From assembly GCA_947179485.1 (NCBI GenBank), contig OX359250.1, forward strand, positions 12,258,539 to 12,322,538: 64,000 nt of DNA, in the 5' to 3' direction. The DNA comes from Allacma fusca. Lineage: Eukaryota > Arthropoda > Collembola > Symphypleona > Sminthuridae. The notes under the pieces are model-generated. The model was not told the origin of the DNA, searched no databases, and saw only the letters and a list, made by a program, of their open reading frames with translations. A program made the translations under genes and the position numbers. Numbering within the stretch: position 1 is the first letter of the stretch; each line of letters starts with the position of its first letter. Below, one piece after another: positions 24,621 to 48,800 of the stretch.

Positions 24621-26781
24621 CTCTGTCTACCTCCGCACACATGAATATTACAATGAGGGAATGACTGTGACTCCAGGAAACGTTCGCTGGAGTATTAGTA
24701 TGTATCTATGTATGTATGTGTAGAGGTTGTTGAAATCTATTTTAAAGTAGGGATACATTTTGTGAGATTTGAGTGCTTGTTTTCTAAATACATGTTTTCA
24801 TTAGCTCGGGCTCTTGCGGAAATACTAAGTTTCCTCCTTTATGGAGTTTTGTCTGTGAGCATGTGTGTACTTGGAGATACATAGATATGTATACCCAAGT
24901 GTATTGGATATGGACTAATGGTATAATAATCCTTGGGACCTTTCCTCCTTTATCTGTAGTTATTGTAATCATATTTGAAGTATTTTCAACTTGACGGTTC
25001 CTGACCCTTTTCCCTATGCAGCATTATTACACAAGTCTGAGAGTAACAGTAGTATATGGACTCAGTGGGTTGAAACAAGACTTTGATAAGTTGTTAGACA
25101 ACAAAGTCGGGAACTATGGGAGTTTACAGCGGAAGTTCCCGTTCACAGACCTAGTTCCTCCGGTACTCAAGAGATGAATTATGCAATATAGAAAGAGGAG
25201 AGTTCAGCAGCGTGTAAGTTAGATATATAAGTATAGTTATATATAATTATGTATAGCTGTTTGTTGGTCTTACCATTCTGACGGTCATGGTCGTAAGCAT
25301 TGATACATTCGGAAGTCATGAATTGACTGATGAGGGCTGTTTTCCCAACTCCTCTGGCCCCAAGCATGGACACACGATGTCCATTGACATCATGATCCCC
25401 ATGACCGGCTGTAGGTGATGCCATGGTGGAGGAGGGTCGCATTGGGGATTTTGGACTAGGCATGGGTGACCTACTGCTTGATGAGTCCCCACAAACATTT
25501 GATGGGAGGAGAAGACCATCTTCGGATGTGAATGGTCCATTCCTCTGTGGTTCGGGTGTGGTTGGTGTTGGGATCAAACTGTTACTTCGGGATCTTCGTC
25601 GGCGGAAGGAGTCACCTCGATTCACGATACCTGTCAAAAATTATTAGGAACAATAATATCTCATTAAAATCCTTCTTATATAAATCACAACTTTTAAATG
25701 AAAGAAATGTATTGTCTGTAGATATATCTATAGTCAAGTCTAGATGTAGGTAGGGTAATGCATTGACTACTGCCCCCGTCCGTGATATTTGTTTTCTTTC
25801 AAAGATTATTATTAGGGTCCAGGGGTCCTGTCAGGAAGAAAGTAGTTGGCTTTTTGAGAATGTATGTATAAATTAGGAATTTAGTCCAAGGGACCTTCTC
25901 AGAGGAGGGGAGGTTAGATAGGAAATGGATGGGAAATTGAAAATTGTCTTGGAATAGATTGATCTTTATGTATATCTTTAGAAGGGCTGGGAGGATTATA
26001 TTGACTCTTGTCTTATACTCTGCAATTGTAGTCGACATTGTACATTCGTCCTTTCTCTCTCTCTATCTCTCTCGCTTTCTCTCTGTGGAATTGCTGGAGA
26101 AAGGAAAGAATTGAAAGATTTATTTATATTGTTTAATGTAAATAACAGCTCATCTCTACCATATATTACTTGGTCACCTCTCTCCCTCTCTCTCTTTCTC
26201 CCTGTCTCTCTCTCTCTTTCATATTCAAAAGCCTTTCTTCTTTCCTTTTCTTCTTTTTCGCCTGTCTTCGTCTTTACCCCTCCTTTTAGTACTACTAAAA
26301 GTTACTTAAACATTGACGACGGGAAGGAATGACAACGACCACGATCATGATGGAGCAGACGAATGTATTAGAATTTACGAGATTCGAGGTTGTGTGGTTG
26401 GTGGTGGTCATCATAAGGATGACGGGTTTTGGAACTGTACTTTAATATAGGAAGGCTTATACATTATGTATACATAATTACGCATTCAAGTATAAGACAT
26501 ATAAGGAAGTTTTTGTGTATAGGTATTCTTGCCTATAAAATGTTAACATATAGAGAAAGAGAGAGAGAGAGAGAGAGACAGAAAGGAGCTGGGCGGTTCG
26601 GCAGTGGTGATGAAAAGAGTTGAAAGAGTCAATTCTCTCATCCCGATTGTTGTATTTGTCGGGAGTTGGGTAAGACATATATTGACATACATGTGTGTAT
26701 ATATATCTAGATATATGTATGTATATTTGGAACGTTGAGGAGAAGAATGAAATCTGTGAACTGGAAGTTGCTAAAGTTTGT

Positions 26782-26815
<34 letters not shown>

Positions 26816-29800
26816 GTCTCTACTCTCACATTGCTATTACACTATGACTACTGCAACCACCAACACTACCACCACCACTATCGTATTTGCTACCACTCCT
26901 TGCATGATGAAGGGAATGGGAAATGCCATGAATCTAAGTTAGGTTTGGAGTAACTAGAGTTTTCGAGTCAAGTCATTTGGTTTGGAGATAGAGGAGAGTA
27001 AAATATAGATGGACGGATGGCTTGGTCGGATTTGTACCGACTTCTTACTTGCATATGTGCTTGGATGCTTCGTACTATAAGTATTACATTTGTAAGCCTT
27101 CCATGGAATCAAGGTTTATATTCTTGAGCATGCTGTAATTCTATGTATCTAGATATTCATATGTATGTAGACATACGTATTTCGTACTTATTGTACTGCA
27201 GCAATGGTAGCAGCAGCAGCAGCTTCTGTTGCTATTCTGCTCTTGCCTTATTGTACTTTCGATCTATGTAGATATATATGTAGATACATACGTATAAGTA
27301 GATACCTCCGGATAGGATTTTGTCTTCCCTGTTTAGGGCCTTGTACTACAGAGTCCTGTTATTAGCCGAGCTCCCAACACTCGAGTATCTTGTACGTACT
27401 TTTGTATATCTACATATACAAACAAACTTAAACTACAGAGTTCAAGCCCTAAGTTAATTCGCATATGATTTGAAAGAGTTCACACATGTACGGGGGAATT
27501 CCAGATGACTCCTTGTCTGTGGGTTACACGGAGTTGGTTATTATTAAAGTTGAAGTTGTAACGTCCTTTGTCTACCTTCAATTCCAAGTAGTAAAGAAAA
27601 GGAATGGAGAAAGGGGGCGATGATGATGATTATGATGAAGGAATGAAATAAGGACGGGAGAGAGAGAGAGAGAGAAACTGTGGAGAAAATTGAGGGAACA
27701 GTGAAAGCAGGTTAGCCTGTCAGTAAGTCAGGAGGTATGTTTTGGGAGTGATGTGAAGCCGAAAAGGGGGGAAGTGAAAGCGGCAGGAGAGGTAATATTA
27801 AGTTGAGGCCGAGGCTTTTATTTAATGTCATGTTTGCCTCGAAATGATTGAGTTTCTATATGTATATATATATATGTATATATAGATTAGATATGAAATT
27901 CATAGTGGATAGGGACATACAGGTATAGGATATTACATGGGATAGGACATTTCGGTTCTTGTGTCTGTCTGCCATGTGTGTGTATCTTTATTGCCTATCG
28001 TCATTTTTTTTCTTTTTATATACAACATGGTCTGGTCCTAACGGTTTAGTATAGGCTTTACCTCTAGGTCCGTACAGAAAAGGTGTGCAAATAAATAGAT
28101 GTATGAGTATCATCATTTAAAGTGACTGCGGCATATTGAGGGTCTGTATGGGAGAAAGTGTTATGGAGCATCATCCTACTATATATTGCTACTAAAGGTT
28201 TCTATATAAGGTAGGTATAGATATGTCTACATATGTATGTACCTACTGAAATCTGTACTTTCATATAAATAGCGAGACTTTCTAAAGCAGGAGGACAGAC
28301 ATGAGCTGAACTTGAAGTGTAGTCAAGCAAATGGATGAGACAATGAAGCGGAGCCACACTGTTTTCCTTAAAATTGTTTCAACAACTACTCTGGAGATGA
28401 CTAGAGCTTGAGTATTTTGACATCACATGAGCAGACATGAATCTATGCATGTATGTATGACTGTGTGTGTACACAGGGGAAGCGACGAGAGTTAAAATGA
28501 TGGCTTCGCAATATGTAGTGCTGTAATATTGTACTCGTTTAGTTTTGTACTTTTGTATTGTTTTTGTCTTTGGTACAAAACTAAACAAACAATATCCATT
28601 TTCGAGATACAAAACTAAAACAAAAACAAAACAGGAATTGAAAAAAACAATACAATCCAAATTGTATTGTTTCAAGGTTCTAGAGACGCTAGAAATTTAC
28701 TAAAGTGATTGTTGTAATAGATTTCTAGAGCACATAGGAATCGATTTGTGTAATTGGAATCGTGAAAAAACACGTCAAAGCACAAAAACTGGGCATTGAC
28801 TAATTATGGTAGATTCGCCTACTATCGCCCATATAAAATATACACTTACATTGAGTATGTCATTCTAGTGTCATGTGACCACTAATGCGCCAATAAAGTC
28901 AATCACAGGTGATTTACTACTAGTTACTCACCAAGTTTCATTATAGGTCATGCGCCCCTTAAAACCGTAATCTGTCATGAGACTATTGGTGACCCAATAA
29001 GGTCAATTTGAGGTCACATGACCTTACTGTGTCACTAGTAGTCACATGACCTCAGATTGACCTTACTGTGTCACTAGTAGTCACATGACCTCAGATTGAC
29101 CTTACTGTGTCACTAGTAGTCACATGACCTCAGATTGACCTTACTGAGTCACTAGTAGTCACATGACCTCAGATTGACCTTACTGTGTCACTAGTAGTCA
29201 CATGACCTCAGATTGACCTTACTGTGTCACTAGTAGTCACATGACCTCAGATTGACCTTACTGTGTCACTAGTAGTCACATGACCTCAGATTGACCTTAC
29301 TGTGTCACTAGTAGTCACATGACCTCAGATTGACCTTACTGTGTCACTAGTAGTCACATGACCTCAGATTGACCTTACTGTGTCACTAGTAGTCACATGA
29401 CCTCAGATTGACCTTACTGTGTCACTAATAGTTGCATGACTTTGACTGTTACCATATTGATTATTAAAGGTTGTAACGGCTGAGGCCACTATATCAACCA
29501 ATAAAACCCTATTATTATTATTATTATATTGATTATTAGACGCCACCGATAAGATGTACTAGTTGTAGGTTACATTTAATGTGGATTAGTAAGACGTCAT
29601 GAAAAAGGTCACGAATTAAATCAACAATGGCTAATGACAATTCAATGGCATCAGATATGATACCAATGAATCGGTACTGATCAATAAAATTGGCTAACCG
29701 TATGGTTTAAATGTTGACCTGGATAAATCTAGTCTGAGTCTAACAAAGACAAAAGACCTAGTCTAACAAACGAACTATGTGATTTGTAAATGTAGTCCAC

Positions 29801-32655
29801 GCATAGGGGACAGTTCTACATTGATGAAATAGGTGGTAAAAGCCAACGGCTGAGCCAATTGAAAATATAGATATCAGAGCCCACGCGTCTACTCTATCCA
29901 TTCTAATTTTAAGCAATGGTAGTGAATATTGTTCATGAAATTATGTTCTTCTGGAAATTACAATGTGGTTATTACAGGGATTATTCACAAATAGGTTGGT
30001 GCCACAGAACTGCACCCTTCAAAATTCGACCGTCAACAGATTCAATGCATTTTATATGGGAGATTCGTCAATGACTGGTTTTTTGATCTTTTACGTAATT
30101 TTTAAACAACTAAATTGCACAAATCAATTCCTACGTGCTCTTGAACTCAGATACAACTATCACTTTAGCAAATTTCTAGCGTCTTCTAGAACCTTAGAAC
30201 AATACAATACAGATTGTACAAAAACAAAAACAATCTGATAGAAGTACAAAACAAAAACAAAACTCGGAGTACAAAACAATATCTTAGTTTTACTACTTTT
30301 GTACTTTTCGCCAAAGTACAATACAATACTAAAAGGACAAATTACAGCACTAGCAATATGTACATACTTACATTGGATATTTTCAATTTCCCATGTGATA
30401 TCAATCTGTATATATTGTAGATGCATGATTGATCTTCTGCATTTTTCATGTATGCTCATACATATCTTCATGCATAATTACATACATACATACATATGGG
30501 GATGCGGAAGGAGCTTTTGGAAAGGCAGGGATGGAATTGAGGGCTGAATAATAATAATTATTAATACACATTTTGAGAGATTCAATAATGTTCTGTCTTG
30601 CTTCTTTTTGATACCTTTACGACTCTTTAAATTCCCACCAGTTCCGTGGATGCTGGATATTTCCTACTATGTATTATAATTTTGTAACAATTTTTTTGTT
30701 TTTAATTTATAGGGGACTGTGTAGGAACAACTCTGCCCTTGCTTCTTCTTACAAAATGGGATATCATGAAAAGAAACTTCGCTTCACTGGAAATCAAGAC
30801 GGAGGAGAATGAGGTTAGCTTTTTTTTTTTAAATTGAAAGCAGAGGGACTTGCCGTATTAATTAATGGATCGTCTCTTATTGTCACTTTAGTATAATTGA
30901 GAAAGGGTTTGGGAGCATAAATACTATATTATTGAACTGGTTGTCTGCTCTACTTGAATTCTTATTGTGAGATATTTTTTGAGACAAGCTAATGGTCGGA
31001 ACTTTTGTCCTCATATGGTATGCATGATCCTGTTTAATAATTATAATTATATGTATATTGCTAAAGTTTCCATGAAAACAGTAGATACTGGTAGTATTGG
31101 AATTTTAGAATTCTTATTACTACTTTCTACTAGAACTACTACACTGTATTTTTTTTTAAACATTAGGTTGAATAATATTTAGACTTTTGACATACATAAC
31201 TATGTAATCATCTACGTATCATATGGTGATCTGGTTATGTTGATTTTGTGTGTGTTTGGGTAGGGTATCTATGTATGTATGGATGTACGTACATACGTAC
31301 GTGCGTATGTACATATATGAGGTTATGGACGATAACCATTAACCTTGATCATTTCCTTTTGAAGAATGACTTGAGGCTCTTAACTAAATTTATCTAATGT
31401 GAAATTCAGCATATATGACTTTATTACAGCTGGATATGATTACTCTCTGCTGTTGCAATGTTTCACAATCGTAAGAAATTTAAATTAAATAATGGTATGC
31501 TCCAGTGGATTCCTTTGTTGTATTTTTTTTTATGTCTCCATTATTTCAGAAGCCCTCCGATCCAAAGATACATACATTACATCATACAATTCTTGTTATT
31601 ACATTCCTCTCTGGAAACATTTTAACTTTCTCCTGACGAGTCAGTTCCATAGGCCTATGTTTATATAGGTACATAATAGCATGGATAGTAAGAAACATTT
31701 TTACATATATTTATATGTATAATTATGTATATATTTAATTGAAATAGGAATTGTACGTGAATGAAAGGAAGTAAGTAAATACCATCACTGTCTGTATAGA
31801 CATCTCTTTTCCCTAACGATCGTGGAATGATGGACAAATAATTCTATGATTTTTTTTTCTTCCCTTGTTTTCCACGACTCCACTCCACTACTCCTACTAC
31901 GGCAAGTGAGTATTATGTATGGAATGTATTATAGGAACGGAACGTGTGTACGATTATGGATACATATATCCCTATGTACATATGTGTTTCCATGTCTCAT
32001 CATGGTTACGCTCAGTCAGAGGGTCAGAGAAGAATCCGGTTGAAACCCCTTTCACATTATTTATTTACTTATGCCTCGTTTATTCCCCACACGGATATCT
32101 CTATACATATAAAAAAAAATATGTGTGACTCTTACTCCGAGCTCTGTTCTATCTTTATGGAGTAGTTGTTGTAGTAGTTTAGGAAATTTCCTAGCGAGTG
32201 CTATTGTTGTAATAAGAAGTACCACTCAACAGAGATTTTGTGAAGGTGGGAAAAAATGCTCTTGGAAATTCGGCTGTAATGTTTGTACGACTCCTGGCAC
32301 ATGTGCCTCCCTGTTATATTCTTCGCATTTTAAAGAGGGCAGAGCTTGATCTCGCAGAAGTTGAAATTCAGAGTGGAGATGCTGTAAAAAGTGAATGTTG
32401 TCCTATACACACTCTTGACTCTTTTCCATGAGAGGATTCATCCTATATATCTGTAGATATGTAGATACACATGTGTAGGGATACATGCTCCTGCTACTGG
32501 GACGATGACGATGATGAGGAAAATGATAATGATGAAGGGGAAAGAGCTCTTGTGCAGCGAAGAAGAGATTTTGATAAATTTAAATCCAGGAAATGCATGA
32601 AGTTTCTGGCTTGACTTTTGTTGCAGGGTTGACATGAGTGTATGGTTGATGTTTG

Positions 32656-32687
<32 letters not shown>

Positions 32688-33281
32688 TATACCTAAATGT
32701 ATCTACATATGTGTGTGTCTGTGTGTTGAAGTGAGCTTGTTTTAAAAAGGAAAATGTGAGACTGTCGTCATCACCGACGTAATTTGCAATACTGTTTAAA
32801 AAAAATTAATAGTGTCAACGGAAATACACATTTTAACCCTGTCGTTGTTCCTTTACATGAGCTCTGCTTCCCTTGTAACTGATGTGTAGATAAAAGAGGC
32901 TGTGTATAATCTGTATACCTACAGGGGACAGATATATCTTCTGTAGGGAGTCGTATTATTTGTATTTGACACAATGATATTTCTTCTTTACGCAAACTAA
33001 TACTAGGCTGACAATTAGGAAGAAGTCTGTATACTTTTGAATGACAGGATATATATTTTTATATATAGGTAGATATGGATTGATACACATGGTTCAATAT
33101 AAATAGTGAGTTCTAATGTTTAGACATGACTCGCTCAGAGTTTAGCTCCCTAGGTAGGGCTTGTCAGGAAGTAGTGCTACTTGAGCATTATAAATACATT
33201 TTCGCTCTTTTATTATTTGAAGGGATTTTAGACATTGCCAATAATTGCACGTGGATGAGGCGTTACACTCGTCTTGATGAC

Positions 33282-33338
<57 letters not shown>

Positions 33339-36300
33339 ATGAGAAAAAGAGAGGAGACAGGAACAAGAGTGGTAGTTGTTGTAGTAGAAGTAGTAGACGT
33401 GGTTCTTGTTGTTGTTGTTGTTCTGTTATGCTACTACGACTTTTATGAAATGTTTATATAAGTTGGTCCTTATGTCCTCGGTTGTGTGTTACGAGCATGT
33501 ATACTTAAATGAAATGTTCCAATGTTATTAGATTTAGTTAGATTTTGGATGAGGGAACCTTTTCTCTCTCACTTCTGCTCCTCCACACATACAATTGCTA
33601 CTACTGCTACTACTTATTATTATTATTATTACTACTTTCACGATTCTCTCACTCTTTGCCACACACACACACACACACACGCTCGACACTCACTCTAGTA
33701 CACATAATTACATACCTATATTTTTATACATTATTACTACATACATACATACACGTGCCCCATGGTTGTTACGAAATTTTACTCAATAGTAGCTGCCAAT
33801 GTTGCTACTTTTTTTGCTGTAAGTATGCACGCTGTAATTTTTTTTTCTTTTCGGGCGCTCTCTTTCAAGTTTGAGAGTAAATGTGCGAAACTGTTGTGGG
33901 GTCATGAAAGAGAAGGTTTTGAACTCCCATGCTATATTCCTGTTGTGTGTAGGTTTTAAGTACACAAATATGAACCCTGACTTGAATGAGGTCAAATAAC
34001 TTGAGACATCAGAATAGTCGTCAAAAATGTTCCTCATATACATACCGGAGTCGTCGTAGTTGTGTATTATTTATAGACTCAATTCTAAATAATTTTTTTA
34101 TGGTGTGCTGTTGTGCGTAAACTGGAGTGAGATGAAATGATTATTGTCCGCATTTTTGTTCCTCTGTTATTCGTATTTATGTATAATATGTAATTTAGTT
34201 GTGGAGCTCTGATAGTACTACTACTACTACTACTACTACTACTAGTAGTCTATTATTATTATATGGTTAGGGGAAGGATGAGATTTTAAAAAGTAAGTGT
34301 TGAAGGATCCTGATGTATAGAACTTTTAGGAACATATGAAAACTCGGAGGTTTATCTTTTAGGGGGCTGTCATTCCTTATGAAAATATTTGAGTTGTTAT
34401 TAGTCCATTGCTTTTTATACACATTACTCTACTGGGGTGTGGGAGTGAGAATAGTAGTAATAATAATAATTACTACTACTTTTATTATTATGATTATGTT
34501 ACAAGCATCCATGTACATATGTATGTATGTGGATGTGCACATAAACAAAACACATTGCAGTCTCATAAATTTGGTTGATTGTATTTTTGGTATTGTATCA
34601 TTTAGTATGATACTGTGCGTGTAGATATATGTGTTTCATGTGGACGTTGTACAGGATTTAGGGATGGAAATCTAGGATTAATATTTTTCTTGCTAATTTA
34701 TACATATGTAGAATCACGTACTTTGCAGAGAGTAGGGAGCATTTAATGTTGTGAGCTTTTAGCTCCTGACGTAATAAAAATTCATATATTCATAGTGTAT
34801 TTTTTTAATGGCAGGGCGGGAGGGAGAATGTACCGGAAAAAACGCCTATTTTTATTTTGTGTCTTTATTCGGTTCGGTGCTCCCTGTAATAACTTGCTTA
34901 TTGGTTCGTGTTTAATCAAATGTAAATCGGAGGCTGTTTTTTTTTAAAATACCGGCAAATGCGTAAGCAATATTTTGCATTTCCATATAATTTATAGTAT
35001 CCTTGTAATAATTAAGATATGACATTTGTATGTATCTACATACAACAGAGGTACAAGGTACCTGTTATTGGGCTTCAATTCTAACTACTGTGTGGAATCT
35101 AGTTGTATCCCTGGACCCAGAGCCTTTCAGCTTACAACGAAATTGGAGACATATGTACATACATATGTGCTGTGCTGTGCTGTGCTCATGGGGTTGGAAT
35201 GAAATCACAACAAGAAACTAAAAGATATATGTGTACATGTACATACTATAAAAAAAGACGAATTACTCGCATGTAAGACATATTGGCTTTTAAGTGTCTA
35301 CCAGCATGCATGTATTTTTTGGCGGAGTACTAAAAGGCAAGTCTTTATGGAGACAGAACTAAGCAGAGAGGGAGAGAGAGAGAGTGAGAGAGAGAGAGAG
35401 AGAGAATGAATTGCCAAGCTGTTGAGATAAATAGAAATGATTGCGGAAATCAAGTGGTGCGTGTTAGGAGCTTATTTTATTTCATGTGAGCCTGCTGCTT
35501 TCCTTTTATTTTTCTGGATAAAGTGTTTTATTTTTCCATCCTTGCCCTGTTGTGTAGTAGGAGTTATAATATATGATTTATTGGAAACTCAACCCAGGGC
35601 ATGTAGTAGTATGTGTGTACGGGTTGGTGGGGCTGGCTTTTGAGAGGGGCGGAACGTCCAGACTCTTACTTGTTCCCAATTTTAAACTGCACCCATTTTT
35701 AGTTTTTATAAGGAAAAGGAAATGGGAGAGTAATATTTTTTTTCTCTGTATATTTCATTTTTCTTTTGAGTGCAATCCACTTTGCTGGATTGATCTAAAC
35801 CGTTTAGTGACCGTGTAAATAACGTTGACTGTGTACGACAACGATTTTAAGATAATTATAATTGTTTGTATTATAACTTTTCCATCCTGTATCGTACTAC
35901 ATATAATCTTTGTATATCCATTATCCACAGGTTTATAAAAATATAAATAAAAACGTTCTCACTCGATTTTTTGAAAGTATGATTCATAAAAAGGAAAAAT
36001 AATGTCTGTACACAGTACACACATATGTATAATTACTTATATCTACATACATGACCTTTGTAGAATTGTGTGGGTGTTTGGTGTATATCTAATCTTTGCC
36101 ATGAAATCGGTTATGACTCCTATTACGTCAATTAATATTTTGGATAGATTTTTGTATGTCTCGTGGACTTTTTCCCGTATTAACGGAGTTTGTGAAAAAA
36201 AAAATTGTATGATGAATGTTGTTTTTTTTGTGGTTTGAAATGGCTCGTTTGTCATTTAACATTATGTCACTATTTCCAACGGCTGGGGACTTGTTCCCAT

Positions 36301-39300
36301 TGAGCACATACACACGAGAGAAATTCATAATTTAATGGATGATTTCCTCTTGGTAATAACCAACATTAAGTCAAGTATGAGTTTTCTTGATAACAACTTT
36401 GAAAAATCAGCTCGTGGAAAGCATGAAGTACCGATTGCTCCCTCGTCACCATTACCGTCGTCGTCGTCATTTTGAGAGAGAGAGAGAGAGAAAACATTGA
36501 GGGACATATGGGGGAAAATTATAATTACAATTATGCATGTAAATTTGTGGTTGGTTGAATGGGAAAGGGAAATGGCTTTATTGCAATTCTACAGAAAGTT
36601 TGAGACTGACTCTAGAGATTCAATAATTTCTACTGCATATGTATATCTGTGTAATAAGGAGTACACGATAAGCTATGCTTTTCAAAATATGTAATTTATA
36701 TGTATCTTTGTATATTACTGTTATTGGGCTATATGATTGCCCGTATTTTGTAATTCATTGATCTGGATCTTTCCCTGAAGGCTGGGGAATGATGTGTGAG
36801 TGCGAGTGACAATTTTCGGGGAATTACATTTGAGGAGATAAGTAGTTACACACATATACAATTGTATGTATCTATAGATAAATAATTTTGCTGATGTATT
36901 CCTATGTGTCTGTGTTACTTGTTGTAGTTTTAGTAGATGACTGGAGAATGAAATCTTAACTTCACCTGCAGTATATACGTATATACATATGTAGTTCTTT
37001 TGAAAATTTTGAATCCCTATTGGTTTTGTTGGGTACGGGGGGGGGACCTATGTATATAATTATATGTAATATGTAAATCAAATTCTACCACCATCAACAC
37101 AAGTAGCGTTTGATATTTTCTATGTGTCCATGCTTTATGTAAGCTGTGATGATATTGAATGGGGCAACAGGTGTGGGTTTCATCTCTCTCTCTCTCACTC
37201 ACTCTCTTTCTTCCTTTCTTTCTTTCTCCCTCCCTCCCTCCCTCCTATGGATATCATTGTTTTTGAGTGTGTTTTTGATCTCTCCTTCCTATCCTATTTA
37301 AGGATTGTTTTTCTGCTGAAGCTTATCTTTTTAAACAGAGGAGTTTCTCTAAGACAATGTTATATTAGTGGAGATGATGGGGAGGAGAGATGACAGGAGT
37401 CTGTTTATTAGGAAGATTCTAAAGCTTATCCATTACCTTGAGCGGAAATCTCATTCATCCTCTTATTTATGTATGTACATATATTCCCTTTCGTGTGTTG
37501 TTCTATTCAATAAGTTGTCTTCTCGACGGGGTGTCTTTCTTTTCACTGGACAATAACACAGTGAAACACTGCGTTATTTACCTACTCCTTCTGGATAATT
37601 AAAGTTATAGTGGGTCTCTGTGTCTATAGTACTACAAAAGTTCGGGATGGTTGATTACCAAAAAATTATGACTAGTGATAACACAAGATTTGCTAAAATC
37701 ATTTGGAGATTGAAGTGAAGAAAACATATCTAGGTACATATGTACGTGAGCTTTTGAGACATGAATTTAAAAACAGGAAAGGTTAACATCAATTATTTGA
37801 GGTAATTTGAAAGCGTTCAAATTACATAATTAGTTATCACAAAAATTAACCCAAAGAAATTGTCAAAGTAAGATATGTAACTATTGGAAAATTATTTAAT
37901 CCGGATCCTCTTTCTCCGTTGGTTCCCTGTAAAATTCTTATTCAATTCAAAGTTGCGCATACTTGTAATTACATAAGCATGTACATGCACATACGTATGT
38001 GTGTGTGTGCGTGTGTATAAGGGTATAAGCACGCTTTCAAATTAGAACTAGTGGTAGTAATTGAACGAAGGCGATTAGCCGTCCTCTATATTCACGATTT
38101 AATTTGTAATAATGTATGCATTTGATCGTTATCGATTTCTCTTGTATTTAACTATTGGAATTGAAGTTTCGTTATTGGATTCGTATTAATTGAACAAGTG
38201 GTCATGCATGGGTGTGTGCGTGATATTATTTCAAATTTCCAATAGCTCCACCATTGGATAGTAACCTTCTTACAATTAGAAAAGGATGGTTATATTCCAT
38301 CTTCTTGTTCTAGTATACTTGCATTCTAATGTTTAGGCGTAGTATACATATATCGAGCTTGGATGCAAAGGAACATGCGTGACACTTTGTTTTCACTTGG
38401 AATTAAAATTACATACGAATGTATGTATATATATATACATATATCTAGATATATATATGGATGGACGGATCCTCCAACAAAACTGTGTTTAATAGGAACC
38501 TACTGCAGTTGCATGTGAAATGTCATGCCTGATTGCAATAAGACCGTGCTATTGATTTTTACAATTCACGGGTAAAAACTTGTATTTCCTTTTTAAGTTG
38601 TTGGAATTGGAGCATTATCCTATTGACATTTTACCCTGCATCCTTTTTCAACCTTTTATGTATGTATTGACTCATGCCGTCAGACAATAGGGAACTGGAA
38701 CTACAGTAGTCCATAGGGAGAAAGATCAGGAGAGAGAATGCTTTTTGTAATTTGAGTATTAGTTACTTGATATTTTTCCATGACTTTTGTTTCTTGGGTT
38801 GAATGGACTGCCGAGGATTTTAAAATTTCCTGGAACTTTAAAAATCTTTCTCACGGCTTAAAAATCCCCTTTTTTTGGGATAACACTGTATTGCGCATAA
38901 GGTTAATTGAATTTCGAGATGTTTTTACAATGGATTTTTTTACGTTATTTGATGCTAAACATAACATAATATGATTTACTCTTTTAAAAAAAAAAAAAAA
39001 AAAACGAAAAGAAATGAAGTTATTTTCCTAAATCTCACTGAGTACGATTTGATCAAAAATTTTTCGTTTGAAGAAAATTGTGGAGTCATTGGATTTTGTT
39101 TTTTATATTTACAACTTTTATCTTGACTTACTTGCTTATGTCTGATTTTGATATATGGGGTTGGGATAAGTGTGTGTACAGCAAACTTGGAGGGAATGGA
39201 AATGCGGAACTGGCATTTTATTTTTATTTTGAAGAGGGCAAGATCTCTGACGTAGGATAGAGAGTGTTCGAGTGTTAGGTTCTTGGGCTGTTTTTAGTTT

Positions 39301-41061
39301 CAGAAGAGGAAGGAAAATAGATATGAATATCATTATAATATATGCTTGGGAAATTTGATTGACTGACAGGGAGGAGTCCATATACATTTATCGGATACAT
39401 CTATCTGTGTACATATGTATGTGTGTGTCTGTATCCGCCCGTCTCTATTTTTATTTATGGAAAGCAATTACTTGTGGTTTCCCATCTTTCTTTTCCTCCT
39501 GTATGTGCTTGACTCTCGAATAAAAATGTAAACAGTGGATTGGGACTAGTTCGGAAATGGATGGCTAGGGAAAGGATTTTCGGATGGATGATTGAATGTA
39601 AACTTATGTATTTGCCAAAAATTAGCAATGGGATCCCCTCTTCCTCTACCTTCTCCTCCTCCTCCTCTTTAGCCCAAGGCATGGAGATCAACCTCCACTA
39701 CGTAGTTTTCCATCCTGGTGCTTTTGTATGTAAATGTGGTAGGTAGGTTTACTTGTTCCCTGACGGAGGTTACAAATGGAATTTCTAGTTAATTGCGGGA
39801 AACAGAAGAGTTATTTGTTTTAAATGTGGCAAACTTGAGTTTTACCAGATTAAAAAAATAAATGATTTTCAAGGTAGGATTATTTAGGACCATTGAATAT
39901 CCTTCCCCGCCCCTCCCCCCCCCTCTTTTTTATTTTGTTAGCACTAAATTAAATATTCTCCTAGTTTTCTCTATTATTTACAGTAACTTCGAACGGAGTG
40001 TACACATTTTTTTTGTTTAAAAAGAAATAGCATATTTTTGTGACCGTTCCCTCATAGATGTTGATACGTATCTATCTATCTTAAGATGTGTTCAGATACT
40101 TGGGGACTTGGGCGGAGCGGAGTAGTACAGGAGCATATATGTATAAGGTATCCCTTGTAATAACACTGTGGTTAACAGTTGTTCAATGACAAAGGTTTTG
40201 GGAGTATGGAGTGTCCTGACATGTGGGAAAATACAAACCCAATGAAAGGATGTGTTTGTAGAAACAACAGCCGAAGGCTATTCGGCAGGAGATTTTCTCC
40301 AGGTTTGTTTCACATATGAAGTAATTCCTCTAGCGTATGTACAGGGATTGGACGATCTATTGGCTCTGCAATGTATTTTTATTTTTAAAAGAATTGAGCA
40401 AACAGACCCTGTCATTGGAAAATGTTTCCAGTCTTATCTCCATATCTCACTCTCTCTCTCTCTATCTCTCTATCTCTCTCAAGTTTTGGTATTTAGTGTC
40501 TCGGATTCAGTCTATCCTATGTTTTTTATTGTATTTTTTGAACCTTCACAGCCACATTTTTATTTTTAAAGTGGTTGGTTAAATACTTGAATGATATGGA
40601 TGTGGTTGTATGTATATGTAATTATATGTGTTTTGTGTGAGCTTGTGGGGATGGTGTCTGGGGAATCACAGGCGGAAAGTTTCATGATCCTGTGAACCTT
40701 GTCTGAAAAGATGAGCGCAGTTGGGATGATTTCGACTAGTGTAATTATTATAGTAACTGATAGGAATCATTTTATATTTTGAAAGAAAAGTAGGCTTTAT
40801 AAAATCCTACTATCTTGTGAAGTAAAGTTCCCTGTGTGTATCAGTTACCCTGGGGAAGCATGTCAAGATGTAAGAGACAGAGGAAGGAGTTAGTACATTT
40901 TGAGAGACGTTTCGAATGGGATCTGGGAACACGTTGCAGTTTAATGCAATTAGGGAACGTAAAAATAAAAATAGTGGTAATGATTATTATTCTTAAATTT
41001 GCACTACTTGAGAGAGTTGAGTGTTTGTGACAATGCGTGACAAGATTCTCACTATGTGTAC

Positions 41062-41098
<37 letters not shown>

Positions 41099-43351
41099 TC
41101 TCTCTCTCTCTCTCTCTCTGTCTCTTGGTGTCTCCATCTCTAGCTCTTTTATATGTGTGTATAATAATCATATAATAAAACTTTTTTCCCTCTGAGTGCC
41201 AAAGGGTTATTTTATGCCTAAGTTGTGCGCAGTTGTATATAATTATTATTTCTTCTCTACTTGTAGCAAGGGACCATTCGACGAGCTCACTCAGAATCAG
41301 TGTCAGTGCATGTGTTAAGTCTAATAGAGAGGGAGAGAGAGAGAGAGACAGAAAGAGACGTGAGGAAGATATGTACCTCTCTACAGGATTCGTATGACCA
41401 TGCCAAATCTGAGATTCTCTTGAAAATATGCTCGTGTCATGTAGTAGTGTTATTTGGTGGACGTGTACTCACAATCAGTACATATTTGATGTCTTATGTA
41501 CATCCCGTCGGATGCATTAATGTTACGTAGTCATATTGTGTGATATGCATCTCTAGCATCATACGTACACTCTCAGGTGTATAAAAATATTATTATAATT
41601 ACTAGAGTTCCAAGGGATACGGAAATCTGAAATACTCTTAAAATAATTCAGTTTCTAAATTCAGATTCCTCCTGGAGTGTACTCCCCTAGTCACATGCTC
41701 CTTATGTCCCTATATATAATTATATGTACATACATTGCAAAATAGCAATTGTCATAGACGTCGGGTCTGGACTAGAGTCTAATAACTGACAACCAATGTA
41801 CGGTGGGATATGGCAGACATGAACGAAGGAGTGAGACCTTGGAGTTTTTTTTTAAATAAAAAAATAAATAAATTTGACAGAAAAATAATTTAATCGAAAG
41901 TATAGGAGATAAGAAGGGGATCTCGTGTTCTCCATATATTTCGATTAGGTATCTTTTTTTTTTAGAGTAACAATATAAAGGGGAGTAGTTTTGAGAGACT
42001 CGAGAGAAAATGATTTTCTTTTTTTTTGTGTGTGTGTGTGTGTGTCTCCTGTTTTGTTTCTAGGGACAGAGCTCTCTGTTTAAAACAAGGAGAGATTGCA
42101 ATGTTGGGGACGCTTTCGTTCATTGGGCTGTGTCTGTGTCTACTCACTTTTGCAGGGACGTATGTGTGCTCAACATCCCTGGTATGTTTGCACAGTAGTA
42201 GGGTCTCTATTGACCTTGAGGGAGTCTACACATTTGTAAGCATATGATAGATACATACCCACACGGAACGTAACGCAGATGTGGTTTTGTGTTTTATTTT
42301 ATTTATATGAACATAATTTACGTAGAGAGAGAGAGAGAGGGAGAAAAAAACAGACAGAGAAAGAAAGAGAGAGAGCTTCCTCTAAAACCAAGACATAGAA
42401 GATTGAAAAAAAAGTGAACCGTGTTCACTTCGGAATGAATTGGTTTATATAACTTGTGACTCTCCTTTCCTGTACAATGTTCAAGTTCAAGATAATTATT
42501 GAAGTATATAGATAATAATTATTTTTTGTATTTATATAATTATTTATTCTTGTTTGAAATTCCCCGTCTTCCTTCGTTTAGTATCTGTGTAAACCCAGTC
42601 ATGACATTTAGAGTTACAAGTCAGTTTTTGTCTTATACATATCTGTATCTATGTATATGTATGTAGATACATTTGACGAAGACGGGAAGAAGATGAAGGA
42701 GAGACATTTTTGATGTACCGTCCTCACATGGCATGGTCTGTCTCGAATGGAGCGGAGCTTAAGTTTATGCTCTTTAGCACAAAAATAGCTCCCCCCATAA
42801 GATTATTATTGAAGTAGTTGCAATCATCAAAAAATATGAGTATGGATAGTTCAAGGTTTCAAGAGTAGCATTTGGGAATTGTTACACCATGCTTTTAGTT
42901 AGTACTTGCAGATGATGGTAGTTTCTTTTTTTTTTCTTTTTTTTTTTTTAAACAAAAAAGTATATATTTTTATACGTATCCATGTGTAATATTATGGGGT
43001 TGGATGGGGAAGTCAGATTTCAACTGCGTCATTCATTTTATGTTGTATTTCCTCAGACGTACGTATTCTTTATATCCCTCTATTCATATATGTAATTTTC
43101 TTTATATGTATACACATGCTCCATGTAATTATGCATGTGAGTTAAATGGTTAGTTGCGGAAACGAGATCATTCTTTATTTTATTTTGTTACTGCTTCTGT
43201 GTGTACACAGTGTGGTACTACTTCTACTACTACTACTGCTGTTACTGAGACTACTGCTGCTCTCCTGCAAAATCCTACCATTGGACCAGACGACTCAAAC
43301 TATGGAATATAAAACCATGCGGAAAATGAGGTTTATTTTGGTATCCCCTCC

Positions 43352-43403
<52 letters not shown>

Positions 43404-44639
43404 TTTCCCTAAAGATACACTGACATGAGAAGTTAAACTTTTAGAGTTTTTTTTTCGCTTCAAGAAATTGTGGGAAAAGTAGGAAACCATAAGTAAATCC
43501 GGAATTGAATGAATGTTTACATAAAAGTACCTCTGACTATGGAGTTTGCACATTATGAACATATCCGTATTGATGAATCTATAAATGAAGCACGAGTTTT
43601 TTTTTCACAGAAAAAAAAGTTGCCTTTTTCTTCTTCTTTTGGGTAATGTTAAGAAGAAGAGAATTGTGTGGACAATATCTGAGGGGATTCTAAGGATTGT
43701 GTATGTGTCTAGTTGTCACTAACAACGTCTCTCTAACAACGTATTACTCTTCTAAGGATTGAGATGGGCAGGTTTAACGTGGTTCTCTTTTTGTCCTTCC
43801 CTCTGGTCCTATACTTATCGGTTTGATATATATATTATATATACATATACATATTTGTTTTTATACCTACTTTCTTTCGTTCCTGGGTTCCCATTTTCAA
43901 AGTAAAAGAGATGCTCTCTTTCTCTATCACTCTCTTTCTCTCTTTGTCCCTCTTGGGATAATTCAGACGAGACATGGTCCACAGGGTAAATGCAACGCAG
44001 GGGATATTTATAATGTTATAATATAGTAGTAGAAATGCATTTTACGTATCTCTCCTGAGGGATGTTAAATCCATCATGATGTATGTATGTATGTATGTAT
44101 GTGTGTATGTGCTTAGCCCTTAAATGTTTTAAGTATACAAGACTAGTGGTTTCTCTATTTTTTTTGGTCTCTTGCCCGAAAGACAGTATTAAAACTTATT
44201 ATTCTACTGCATTAGTAGTAGTAGTAGTAGTAGCTGTAACTGTAACTGTAACTGTAGTGTTAGTAGTTCCAGCTGAGTCTCTTCACAGTCTTTAGAGATG
44301 ATTGTGAAGATTGTCGGGGTGATTCGTAGTCATCAGCCCGTTTGTAGTAGCTGACAATGTGTAATTATGTGACTGTGAATAAGAGATTACCTGGGGGACA
44401 GAGGCAGAAGGATGGGGAAGCGTGAGAAGATCAAGGAGGATCAAGATAGATGAGAGATGTGTGAAGATAGCGTTGATTCCCTAAATGGACCAGTTTAATG
44501 AAATGCATACGTGCGTGGGAGAATTCCGTAAAAGCGAGATTGCATGAGGGATGGGAGTGGATGAGTAGGTGTGTGTGAGAAAGAGATCGGAGAGAGCTTA
44601 AAATGTAGGATAGTGAGAGCATATTAAAGAGAGTGAATT

Positions 44640-44679
<40 letters not shown>

Positions 44680-45408
44680 TGAGAGAAAAAAAAAGAGTCT
44701 GGAGAAACTTTTTGAAGGAAAAGAATTTGAGAAATGATGGGAACAGTTTTTTTTTTCTATGTACTACAAATATGTGCATAAGTGTTACCTAGACACGTGA
44801 AAGGGAAATCCTGAAATAACCTAAATAAAATATAGTTGGACGAAGTTAGTTTTTAGATAAGGTTTGGTTAGGTAAGGTAAGGTAAGGTAAGGTAGGACTT
44901 TAGAAGCTACAGTTTATATTATATAATTATGTAAGTATTGGGACGATTAGCTAGAGATACGCAAATATAATTGTATATCCCTAACCCTCCCCAAACCGGA
45001 ATCTACATGCATAGATATGTTCTGAATGAACAGTTGTGTTGTAATGATTTTCTTGTCTCGTTTACCTAATGCTTTCCCTACTTTGTAACTCTTTCTCTCA
45101 TTTTATCTCCTCTCAGACTCCGTCAACCTATCTATGTATGTATGTATGTATGTATGTATGTATGTATGTATTCCCGACTTCCTTCCTTTCTTCCTTGTAG
45201 TACTCCTCGGATCCTGAGGCCTCTCCCCAACACACGGAGTCATTATAATGACAAGCGTCTGTCCAAAGTCTCTAGTGTGTTTGCTGTTCCAATTGGAAAT
45301 ACCTATCTCAGTCTCAATCTTAGTAGATTCTGGGTTTCGATTCCCCTGTTTACCTCACCATTACTACTGTTGTGAGAGGAAGCGATTTTGGGGTAATTTC
45401 TGAATGAG

Positions 45409-45469
<61 letters not shown>

Positions 45470-48400
45470 TGCTAGCTAATGACACTGTCTTCCATGACAT
45501 AGGAAGACTTGTGTGACATTGGAGAGAACGGACAACACCTGTGTATCATCCACACTCTTAGTTATTACTAAAGTCCCGGATAGGATAATAATAATAATAA
45601 TAATTTATTACTATTTCAAACCCCATCTCACCCAATCTCTCTATAATAATTCTGCTGTGATTAGATACTTGAAGATCAATGTAGGAATTTTTGCCTGGGT
45701 TGAGTATAATAATTATTATTGTATAAATAGGAAATCACACTTGAGAGGAGACCAATGGTATGGTATCAGTCATGTTGACTTATTTGTAATCAGAGCAATG
45801 CAGAAACAATTGGTAGTTATTTTTACTTTTTGTTCTCCCAATTTTCTGTATTTAGGAGAGTGAGCGATTCTATGGACCAATCTGGTTTTCTTTGGGGGTG
45901 ATTGAGTAGTTTGTGTCCAATTTACTTTATGACTGATTGTGAGTCTGTGTTTATGTAGACGGGACTGATTGTGAGCATCTATTAATAGCCAGGATCATAC
46001 GTTTTCCTAAGTGCTGATGATTATTATGTAGATGTCTATGTATGTATATAAGTATCTATTTCTAGGGATGTATATTGTATGACAGGGATAGGGATAACTC
46101 TCACAATCAGAGGGTGGATGAATTTAGGTCGATTGAGGAGGGAGAGAAAATTCTCCCCATTGGATTTTTGATGTTGTTTTATGACACTATTGGTTTGGTC
46201 TCGTTCCTTGGGGACTTTTTTTTTTTTCTTCTTCTTCTTCTTCTTCTTCTTCTTCTTCAATGGAATTATGTATGCCTCTCTTTTCCCTTCTCTCCTGAGT
46301 TTTTTTTTGTCGGTCTCCCTATATATGCAGTTTATCAAAGATATATGAGAGACTCCTAAAATAAAAGAGATGGCTGGAGTAAAGGATTAGATGATAGATA
46401 ATCTAATAAATGGCTCTACTATGTCCTACTGCTCCTCCTGGCTAATGATGATGAGAAAGTCAACGGACTGTGTGTCAGTCTGGAGTGGATTTTTTTTTTA
46501 TCCTAAAAGGTTTTGGAACATCTTGTGGATAAATACTTTATTATTACTATATATTGTAGTACCTTTTATATATTGCTACATATATATATATATGTTATGT
46601 ATAAATACTATCGTATTATTATTATTATATATTTTTATTTATGTTCCACTGCTGTTGCTGGGATGAGACTCTATATTCAATATTTTATGATGTGGACATA
46701 CGTATTTTTTTATAGCTTCTTGTACAATAGTTCAACATACAAACAACAGGAGATTTGATATGATGGCTTTGGTAATATTTTTTCTTGTAATGTTGCTCCA
46801 TGAAACTATCTAATGTTTTTCTAATGACAATATTATTACTTCAAAGGAAAGGCGGAATCTAGGAAAATTGAGTAAAGGGATTATTGCTCAAGTTGTAGAG
46901 ATCAAGATACATCTCTTGTGTATTGTATAGATACATAAGTATATACATACATAGCTTCCCCTTGTGATATGAGATCTTTTGGTATCTTTGTTTTTTTTAT
47001 CCGGACTACAGTATACGTGCCTTTTGTGTTCATTTAGTTTAAAGGCTTTTCTATAACCTGTAAAACTACCTTGTCCTTTTCCGTTAGATTTCCTGTACAA
47101 ATGACAATTTTTAAAGGAAAGGGAACGAACGCTAGGAATATATGACAGGAGGGGAGGAAGCGGTGAGACCAATGGTGGAAAAGTTTGTTTTTAAAATCAA
47201 CAACCCGCTTAAATTGGGATAAGAGGATAAATAAAGTTATATGAAAGCCCACAAGTTCTTTAACAAATCTAAGTGCACTGGAGAATAAAAGTCTGATATG
47301 GGTTTTCCTGTGAGGGATTTGAAGTGGACTAGGATTGTATCCAGGGATTGTTTTGTCGTTATTATTATTATTATTATTATTACGACTCATACTCCAACTA
47401 ACCACACATTCTCTTTTAATTTGAGTAATGTTTTTGTTGTTGTTGTATTATCAGGGAAGGGATTTTTCCTCGGAAAGGTAATTTATTTTGATGATCCTGT
47501 AATTTGACAATCCACTACTAAATATTGAATGAAATTGTGAACAGCCATTTATACTTTCACGAATCCTTTCAAAGGAAATTGTGTGCTTGTTTGTTTGTTT
47601 GTTTGTTTCTGTATGAGGGTGAACTTTATAGTTAGTTACTATTGTTAGTAGGATTATTCCTATTGGGATGACAAGTTGACTCAAATTTCAGTCCATGGTT
47701 TGGAGGAGACACGAGAAACTTTTGGGGAATTGGGTTCTATATGGAAGTAGATACTCCTTTCTATATGTCCTCTAAAGCATCTGTGTATGATCGTTTGAGT
47801 GTTTGTATGAGTGATAAAGTACATTTCATATTTTATCTTGCTCCTCTGATGGTGACGTTGTTTGAGAGTGGATTATAGGGGGAGTTATTGATGGGATTGG
47901 TAATAATTATTATGCATTTTTTGAAATGTCCTCGCACTTTCAAATGCTGACACTTTCCTGAGAGTTCTGTGTGAGCTGATGTAAGAAATTGGAGGAGGGA
48001 ATTGATTGAAGGATTTGCGTTTATATATATATACATTTTTATGTATTTATAGATATATGTAAGGAATTTGGAAAGAAAGTGAAGATTTTTTTTTCCTCCT
48101 CATGGAAAACTATTCGTCCTCGGCTCTTTTAGTATTTGTACATATGATGAATATACTTATATGTGTGTGTGTGTGTGTGTTGCCTAGATGAGATTTGCAA
48201 ATGTAAGGGAAAAAAGATTTGGGAGGAATTTGTGAGAGGATAGTTTGAAGTGGCAAGTAGGGCTTGGAGTGGTGTAAGGAGAAATAACGATTGAGATTGG
48301 GAGGAAATTCATTGACGTTTTACAGTCACCTATTGGGAAGTAGTATCTATCTCTACATCTCTACATATCCATATATATCTATAATTTTTTTTACAGATAT

Positions 48401-48768
48401 TCAGAAACTTACTGGAGGTAGTTTTGAGGAGAGAGAGAGAGAGAGAGAGAGGTCCTGGAAGTGTACAAGTTTATGTATGTACTTATATCTATATGTATGT
48501 CGAGAATTTCCGAGCAGGTATCGTATGTATATAACGTAAAACTGGATGCATTAGTATGGATTGGATTTGAGTGGGGAAAGGTGTTAGTAGGGCCCTTGGA
48601 ATCCAAGTCTATTGAGTATCCACCAGTATATATGTACACAGATATGGGTATGTGAGGGAGGACAAGAGTAGGATGGAGGGAAAGGTGGTGGTAGTAAGTA
48701 AGTAAGTCAGTCAGTTCGTGGGGGATCTAGATATTGAGAAGAGAAGGCTCTTCTTTTGGACTAGGAGT

Positions 48769-48800
<32 letters not shown>

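Follow-up and report, generated by a model that had tools for sequence, protein, structure and literature searches.

How should ten perfect nuclear-receptor sites, carried by a transposon within the intron of a gene, be read: as a hormone-responsive cluster delivered to that gene, or as a repeat that merely travels with its carrier? The question is raised by a locus of the collembolan Allacma fusca, analysed here in a window of 64,000 nucleotides (contig OX359250.1, positions 12,258,539 to 12,322,538 of the forward strand), to which coordinates refer unless stated otherwise. We favour the second answer, with a probability of about 80%: the array is probably the internal minisatellite of a recently multiplied non-autonomous hAT-like transposon, and its receptor-like sites would have spread passively.

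The array spans positions 29019-29440, with a period of 39, 10.8 copies and 98% matches according to Tandem Repeats Finder. The plus-strand sequence of the unit is TGACCTTACTGTGTCACTAGTAGTCACATGACCTCAGAT, and on the minus strand the unit junctions read AGGTCA-ATCTG-AGGTCA, which is the geometry of a DR5 response element (two AGGTCA half-sites, 5-bp spacer). Ten such sites follow each other on the minus strand in 39-bp steps (29047-29414), with the spacer ATCTG in 10 of 10, and the roughly tenfold array of perfect DR5s announced by a preliminary description of this DNA is borne out. The same holds for the two other motifs that it had pointed out: the extended half-site TAAGGTCA is found in every array unit on the minus strand, and the CACATG E-box, in the form GTCACATGAC, has 10 occurrences in the array. 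TAAGGTCA has no exact match among what we take to be the extended half-sites of FTZ-F1, ERR, HR3/ROR and NGFI-B. Exact AGGTCA-N5-AGGTCA occurs 11 times in the whole window, compared with a mean of 0.01 in dinucleotide shuffles, and AGGTCA direct repeats of spacing 0-8 are absent from the window outside the element. Per random 39-bp unit of the array's composition, ∼2.7e-6 exact DR5s are expected, a figure that takes no account of the many other motifs a reader could pick. Only one of the ten full units (29136-29174) departs from the other nine, which are identical, and it does so by a single change outside the half-sites; thus, the array is one unit multiplied. An independent origin of the ten DR5 sites is ruled out by the same identity. 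Viral contigs scanned with a 24-nt piece of the unit gave 0 matches.

The element around the array measures 1,837 bp (28516-30352), has ends of 12 bp and is flanked by a target duplication of 8 bp (Table 1). Transposon carriage, also part of the preliminary description, thereby receives support from the terminal repeats and target duplications that flank the element. Terminal inverted repeats of hAT-type elements start with YAGNG. Among 38 tabulated elements, TAGTGCTGTAAT is found at both ends in 33, the right end is altered in two (L025 and L040) and one end is unaligned in three (L015, L037 and L045); the 8-bp target-site duplications are perfect in 33, carry one mismatch in two and have an end not aligned in three. 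An 8-bp duplication together with short matching ends indicates an element of the hAT type. MITEs are short, commonly under about 600 bp, and non-coding; assignment to this class was rejected on grounds of length, both for the 1,837 bp of this element and for the others with a size (1.6-5.6 kb). Two frames overlapping the element (one at 29939-30238) remain without a Pfam match at a cut-off as lax as E 10. Beside the array, the stretch 28790-28979 aligns to the tandem unit with a score of 97, the maximum in 200 shuffles being 51.

Table 1. Coordinates of the element, its array, the surrounding intron and a hAT element with similar ends
Feature	Position	Strand	Remarks
Target-site duplication GCAATATG, left copy	28508..28515		Same letters as right copy
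Left terminal inverted repeat TAGTGCTGTAAT	28516..28527	+	Exactly matches right end on minus strand
Left end of non-autonomous hAT-like element	28516..28858	+	343-bp query against genome
Inner left arm	28684..28788		Inverted relative to 30080-30184, 79% complementary
Degenerate 39-bp units	28841..29016	+	Inverted relative to array; alignment score 147 to tandem unit
Inverted DR5 AGGTCA-ATTTG-AGGTCA	29000..29016	+	Just outside array; pattern count; intact in 51/60 copies
39-bp tandem array	29019..29440	-	10.8 copies; ten DR5 and ten GTCACATGAC
Right part of element	29448..30352	+	Genome matches; no gene found
Inner right arm	30080..30184		Inverted relative to 28684-28788, 79% complementary
Right terminal inverted repeat TAGTGCTGTAAT	30341..30352	-	Exact match to left end
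Target-site duplication GCAATATG, right copy	30353..30360		Same letters as left copy
RGK-like intron holding element	25631..48822	-	23,192 bp; donor AAAG|GTAAAA, acceptor TTGACAG|GTATCG
hAT L070	L070:1304-5365 (C10:9633500-9639000)		4,062 bp; ends TAATGCTGTAAT/TAGTGCTGTAAT; 8-bp target duplication CCTGTGAG

The gene around the element appears to be RGK-like. A vertebrate RGK GTPase probe (tblastn) matches the minus strand at 7754-7581 (E 4e-9) and 4831-4712 (E 4e-7), with a P-loop match at 25379-25320 (E 0.12). The two RGK-like frames gave nothing against Pfam at E 0.001, and at a lax cut-off the P-loop exon has sub-threshold Roc and Ras matches; for the putative RGK-like identity, tblastn is the stronger support. 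The intron lies between a coding exon whose end is at 48823 and the P-loop exon, which begins at 25630; its putative splice sites were judged by eye. The placement in an intron of an RGK gene, as first described, agrees with the tblastn matches and with the extent of the intron, which contains the element; the designation as the first intron stands in so far as the intron lies between the first and second visible coding exons, and is valid among coding exons only. Ten perfect sites inside a 23-kb intron invite the idea that this array has been co-opted as an enhancer of that one gene. The left end of the element is matched at 100% elsewhere in the genome, its target duplication is intact and no measured feature distinguishes the window copy, and we regard such co-option as extremely improbable. 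Most likely, the copy in the intron represents a passive insertion, which by chance would have brought with it a dense cluster of receptor-like sites.

The genome (393 Mb, 91 contigs) holds hundreds of candidate copies of the element. The 343-bp left end yields 622 candidates, of which 40 were scored and 40/40 have 99-100% identity; the right part yields 626, of which the 40 scored are full-length or nearly so, at 97-100%. A three-unit query of the array gives at least 337 matches (40 of 145 candidates scored). The 99-100% identity among the 40 scored left ends indicates a recent burst of one family. In 37 array loci that were fetched, the left end is present in 36 (absent in L044) and some right part is in register in 36 (absent in L045). 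Two peculiar arrangements are seen among the copies. At L012:1058-5956, two elements in head-to-tail order share one target duplication, AGTGCAGG standing between them as well as on either side of the pair. In L017, L021 and L042, the right part is broken by ∼0.7-1.1 kb of foreign DNA, perhaps as a result of nested insertions.

Other copies of the element do carry the array, a point that the preliminary description had proposed to check, but its length varies widely. In a set of 58 copies (60 left ends minus L026 and L045, in which no right end is in register), the arrays contain 803 full units in total, from 1 to 105 per copy. Forty copies picked by the left end alone, all of them measured, have 1-26 units and 0-26 DR5s each. 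Even eight copies, including that of the window, with ungapped 343-base left ends no more than 2 bases apart have between 3 and 12 units, and copies with only 1-2 units occur in near-identical elements as well. Such a spread, including that among near-identical copies, indicates that array length is free. The array is thus internal to the element and variable between copies, as is a transposon-borne minisatellite.

Both half-sites are intact in 703 of the 803 units overall and in 354 of 384 units in the left-end set. Counted as distinct variants, with a one-base deletion in the TT run scored outside the half-site columns, changes fall into half-site columns in 12 of 38 cases in the left-end set (11.7 expected) and in 19 of 55 in all 58 copies (16.9 expected); by this count, half-site constraint is not detectable among recent copies in either set. 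The interval for 12/38 (0.175-0.487, with 0.308 expected) is wide enough to accommodate a modest constraint. Raw changed cells are fewer in half-sites than expected (108 of 591 versus 181.8 in the 58 copies; 37 of 274 versus 84.3 in the left-end set), a deficit mainly due to one hot column outside the half-sites: column 19 of the unit (G to A or C) contributes 269 cells in the 58 copies and 163 in the left-end set, and without it the half-site cells amount to 108 of 322 (101.7 expected) and 37 of 111 (35.1 expected), respectively. Variant-by-element counts, which tally inherited variants many times, are somewhat low in half-sites (38 of 169 versus 52.0; 26 of 99 versus 30.5). The inverted DR5 outside the array shows 11 distinct substitutions in its 12 half-site columns versus 111 in 146 other columns (60 copies). 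Within arrays, one copy carries the same T to C half-site change in 48 of its units; by its counts, this copy is L014 (105 units, 50 DR5s).

These data bear on the functional proposal of the preliminary description, namely that the element places a hormone-receptor-responsive cluster in the intron, a proposal said to fall if copy number drifted freely and half-sites degenerated in other copies. Copy number does drift, and half-sites are broken and amplified in other copies; with array length free and half-sites degenerating, the proposal is not upheld for recent copies. Copies of any transposon decay neutrally after insertion, so this test leaves room for a function at the level of the family. 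In its broader form, the alternative states that the DR5 core is kept family-wide for the sake of a host nuclear receptor, be it EcR/USP or some other binder of direct repeats, whose presence on the array aids the transposon (chromatin opening or the timing of transposition being examples), gene-near copies then acting as hormone-responsive modules. Given recent copies without detectable half-site constraint, amplified broken half-sites and arrays that range from 1 to 105 units, we consider it unlikely. Arguments in its favour come from the genome at large and from diverged relatives of the element.

Perfect DR5s number 5,321 genome-wide (2,535 + 2,786), compared with 124 (70 + 54) for the reversed-pattern control, an excess that speaks for receptor use, as does the presence in this genome of encoded nuclear-receptor DNA-binding domains (40 zf-C4 matches). 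The 22-nt core of the window type is found 1,169 times (586 + 583). Among the first 100 DR5s listed, all on contig C1, 86 have spacers seen in related arrays and 14 have others, as judged by eye; the array-family spacers are ATCTG, ATCTT, ATTTG, AATTA, AATTG, AATAA and ACTGG. On the basis of these 86, most perfect DR5s in the 393-Mb genome seem to be attributable to this repeat superfamily. DR5s with other spacers (AGCTG, AGATG and CAGCT) recur, as at C1:218817, 7662179, 7415932, 1113628 and 8897493, and may belong to other repeats.

Two diverged relatives, L074 and L075, have ends alignable at about 70-75% and arrays of 39-bp units with differing tails around TGACCT-N5-TGACCT cores; one search pattern matched the L075 array only, in 8 places. 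Both also contain 35-bp units in which most of the second half-site is lost. About nine 35-bp copies, with a unit 4 bp shorter and devoid of DR5, make up a sub-array at L074:1370-1689, between two 39-bp arrays. The array-free right flank of L074 gives 241 candidates, the 40 scored having main matches at 89-100%, which points to a second multi-copy subfamily. With a pattern anchored outside the half-sites, 107 units of this subfamily were retrieved, and both half-sites are kept in 86 of them. At C8:22774588-22774854 and C9:34455672-34455977, intact and broken DR5 units alternate regularly, indicating that broken half-sites are amplified in the second subfamily too and suggesting two-unit higher-order repeats at these loci.

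Comparison of diverged units offers the receptor alternative a further argument. Fifteen types of 39-bp unit, drawn from the window, L074 and L075 and separated from one another by 5 or more differences, have a mean pairwise difference of 0.146 in half-sites versus 0.363 elsewhere, the half-site columns being the least variable of the 39 rotations of the mask; this set excludes the 35-bp units, a single 40-bp unit, the final edge unit of L074 and a few near-duplicates. L074 and L075 were found by a DR5 search, which introduces an ascertainment bias; once the type of the window and, for each locus, the type that led to its detection are removed, 12 types remain, with values of 0.179 versus 0.357 (P 0.011), and both half-sites are kept in only five of them. 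Addition of two 35-bp types, gaps counting as differences, gives 0.253 versus 0.370 (P 0.06) for 14 types and 0.213 versus 0.372 (P 0.014) for 17 types. The half-site mask still ranks lowest of the 39 rotations, but units such as those of the L074 sub-array, devoid of DR5, do weaken the signal. Since neither columns nor unit types are independent, the lower half-site variation is a hint, and the case for half-sites varying less than the rest between subfamilies is weak.

The same columns could be held for another reason. The TGACCT-N5-TGACCT block may serve the transposon itself, either as a contact for the transposase or a host recombination protein, or as a core that drives expansion of the repeat. 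Across unit types, the block is less variable than the tail, an inverted unit stands beside the array, and the stretch 28850-29110 has a strong single-stranded DNA fold (z -5.65). The only related hAT found with a transposase frame, however, has no DR5 in the 5.5 kb fetched, and elements reduced to 1-2 units occur among near-identical ones. Collectively, this makes a role in the transposon's own biology quite unlikely.

Under the favoured reading of a passive minisatellite, a hAT transposase supplied by another element would recognize the shared ends and move the non-autonomous copies. Gains and losses of the 39-bp repeat would come from slippage, from unequal exchange or from template switches made while the excision gap is repaired, as the spread of copy numbers suggests, and the DR5 motif, already present in the ancestral unit, would have been copied along with it. 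hAT dimerization domains are numerous in the genome (860 candidates; 150 scored, all matching). Six loci with long hAT frames were fetched, and one of them, L070, shares the end type of the element (Table 1). Its frame of 642 amino acids, stop to stop, contains zf-BED and Dimer_Tnp_hAT domains; the fetched 5.5 kb of L070 is free of DR5, and the analysis reported no tandem array in it. Similarity to the element beyond the ends is weak, so L070 is a cousin, possibly a relative of the mobilizer, rather than a proven partner. A further hAT-like candidate, at L068:155-3068, encloses a dimerization-domain match; its ends are CAGGCCTGGATAAC/CAGACCTGGATAAC and its 8-bp duplication is GCTAGTAG.

RAR, the classical DR5 receptor, is not known from insects; the likeliest binders of the array, if any, would be EcR/USP or orphan receptors. 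AGGTCA direct-repeat hormone elements have been reported in insects, which favours a receptor on the array, but antibodies to EcR or USP failed to supershift the cockroach protein complex described in the same source (PMC8435907, available excerpt). On protein-binding arrays, 12 NR:RXR-alpha dimers bound all spacings tested (0-5) as well as single half-sites, and this binding did not correspond to in vivo function, according to the accessible part of PMC6555819. With such promiscuity, binding of the array in vitro would be unsurprising and no proof of function. The most far-reaching version of receptor use is that the hAT-like lineage has kept its DR5 core through several subfamilies since a host nuclear receptor uses the tandem platform, which can reach roughly a hundred units, the thousands of perfect DR5s then forming a genome-wide receptor sink or a set of hormone-timed insertions; it would be a proposal of low probability.

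Whether it has a function or not, the array has practical consequences. Scans for hormone-response-element motifs in this species would mostly return transposon arrays, and copies with 1 to 105 units on similar backbones constitute a natural dose series for the effects of receptor-site clusters. Transposons that carry tandem repeats are already known, and so are transposons that carry receptor or factor sites, to judge by the accessible parts of four reports (PMC4079207, PMC1785376, PMC9659126 and PMC5913719). What goes beyond routine is the combination of both in one expandable hAT-like array, with thousands of perfect DR5s; open-access titles and abstract openings disclosed no report of DR5 tandem arrays carried by transposons in insects.

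On the side of the sites, Alu elements likewise multiply nuclear-receptor direct repeats genome-wide, in the form of DR2 retinoic acid response elements. That case concerns a primate retroelement with receptor binding established by ChIP, and the available excerpt (PMC1785376) mentions no tandem array, whereas the sites of the present array are of the DR5 type. hoboVA of Drosophila simulans resembles the present element in being non-autonomous and related to hAT transposons, and it has been proposed as a vehicle that spreads factor-binding sites; in its case, they are predicted developmental sites for hunchback and even-skipped, an expression pattern is reported and no minisatellite is mentioned in the portion of text at hand (PMC5913719). 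On the side of the repeats, MITEs and DINE/Helentron elements share with the present family a repeat inside a mobile element, burst amplification and homogenized arrays, but the examples belong to other superfamilies and come with no mention of a receptor-type motif in the accessible section of PMC9659126. Finally, Tetris, a foldback transposon of Drosophila virilis, is a non-autonomous DNA transposon too, with internal tandem repeats able to give rise to satellite-like arrays; in the part of the source available (PMC4079207), its repeats measure about 220 bp and reside in the terminal inverted repeats, whereas those of the present hAT-like element measure 39 bp and are internal.
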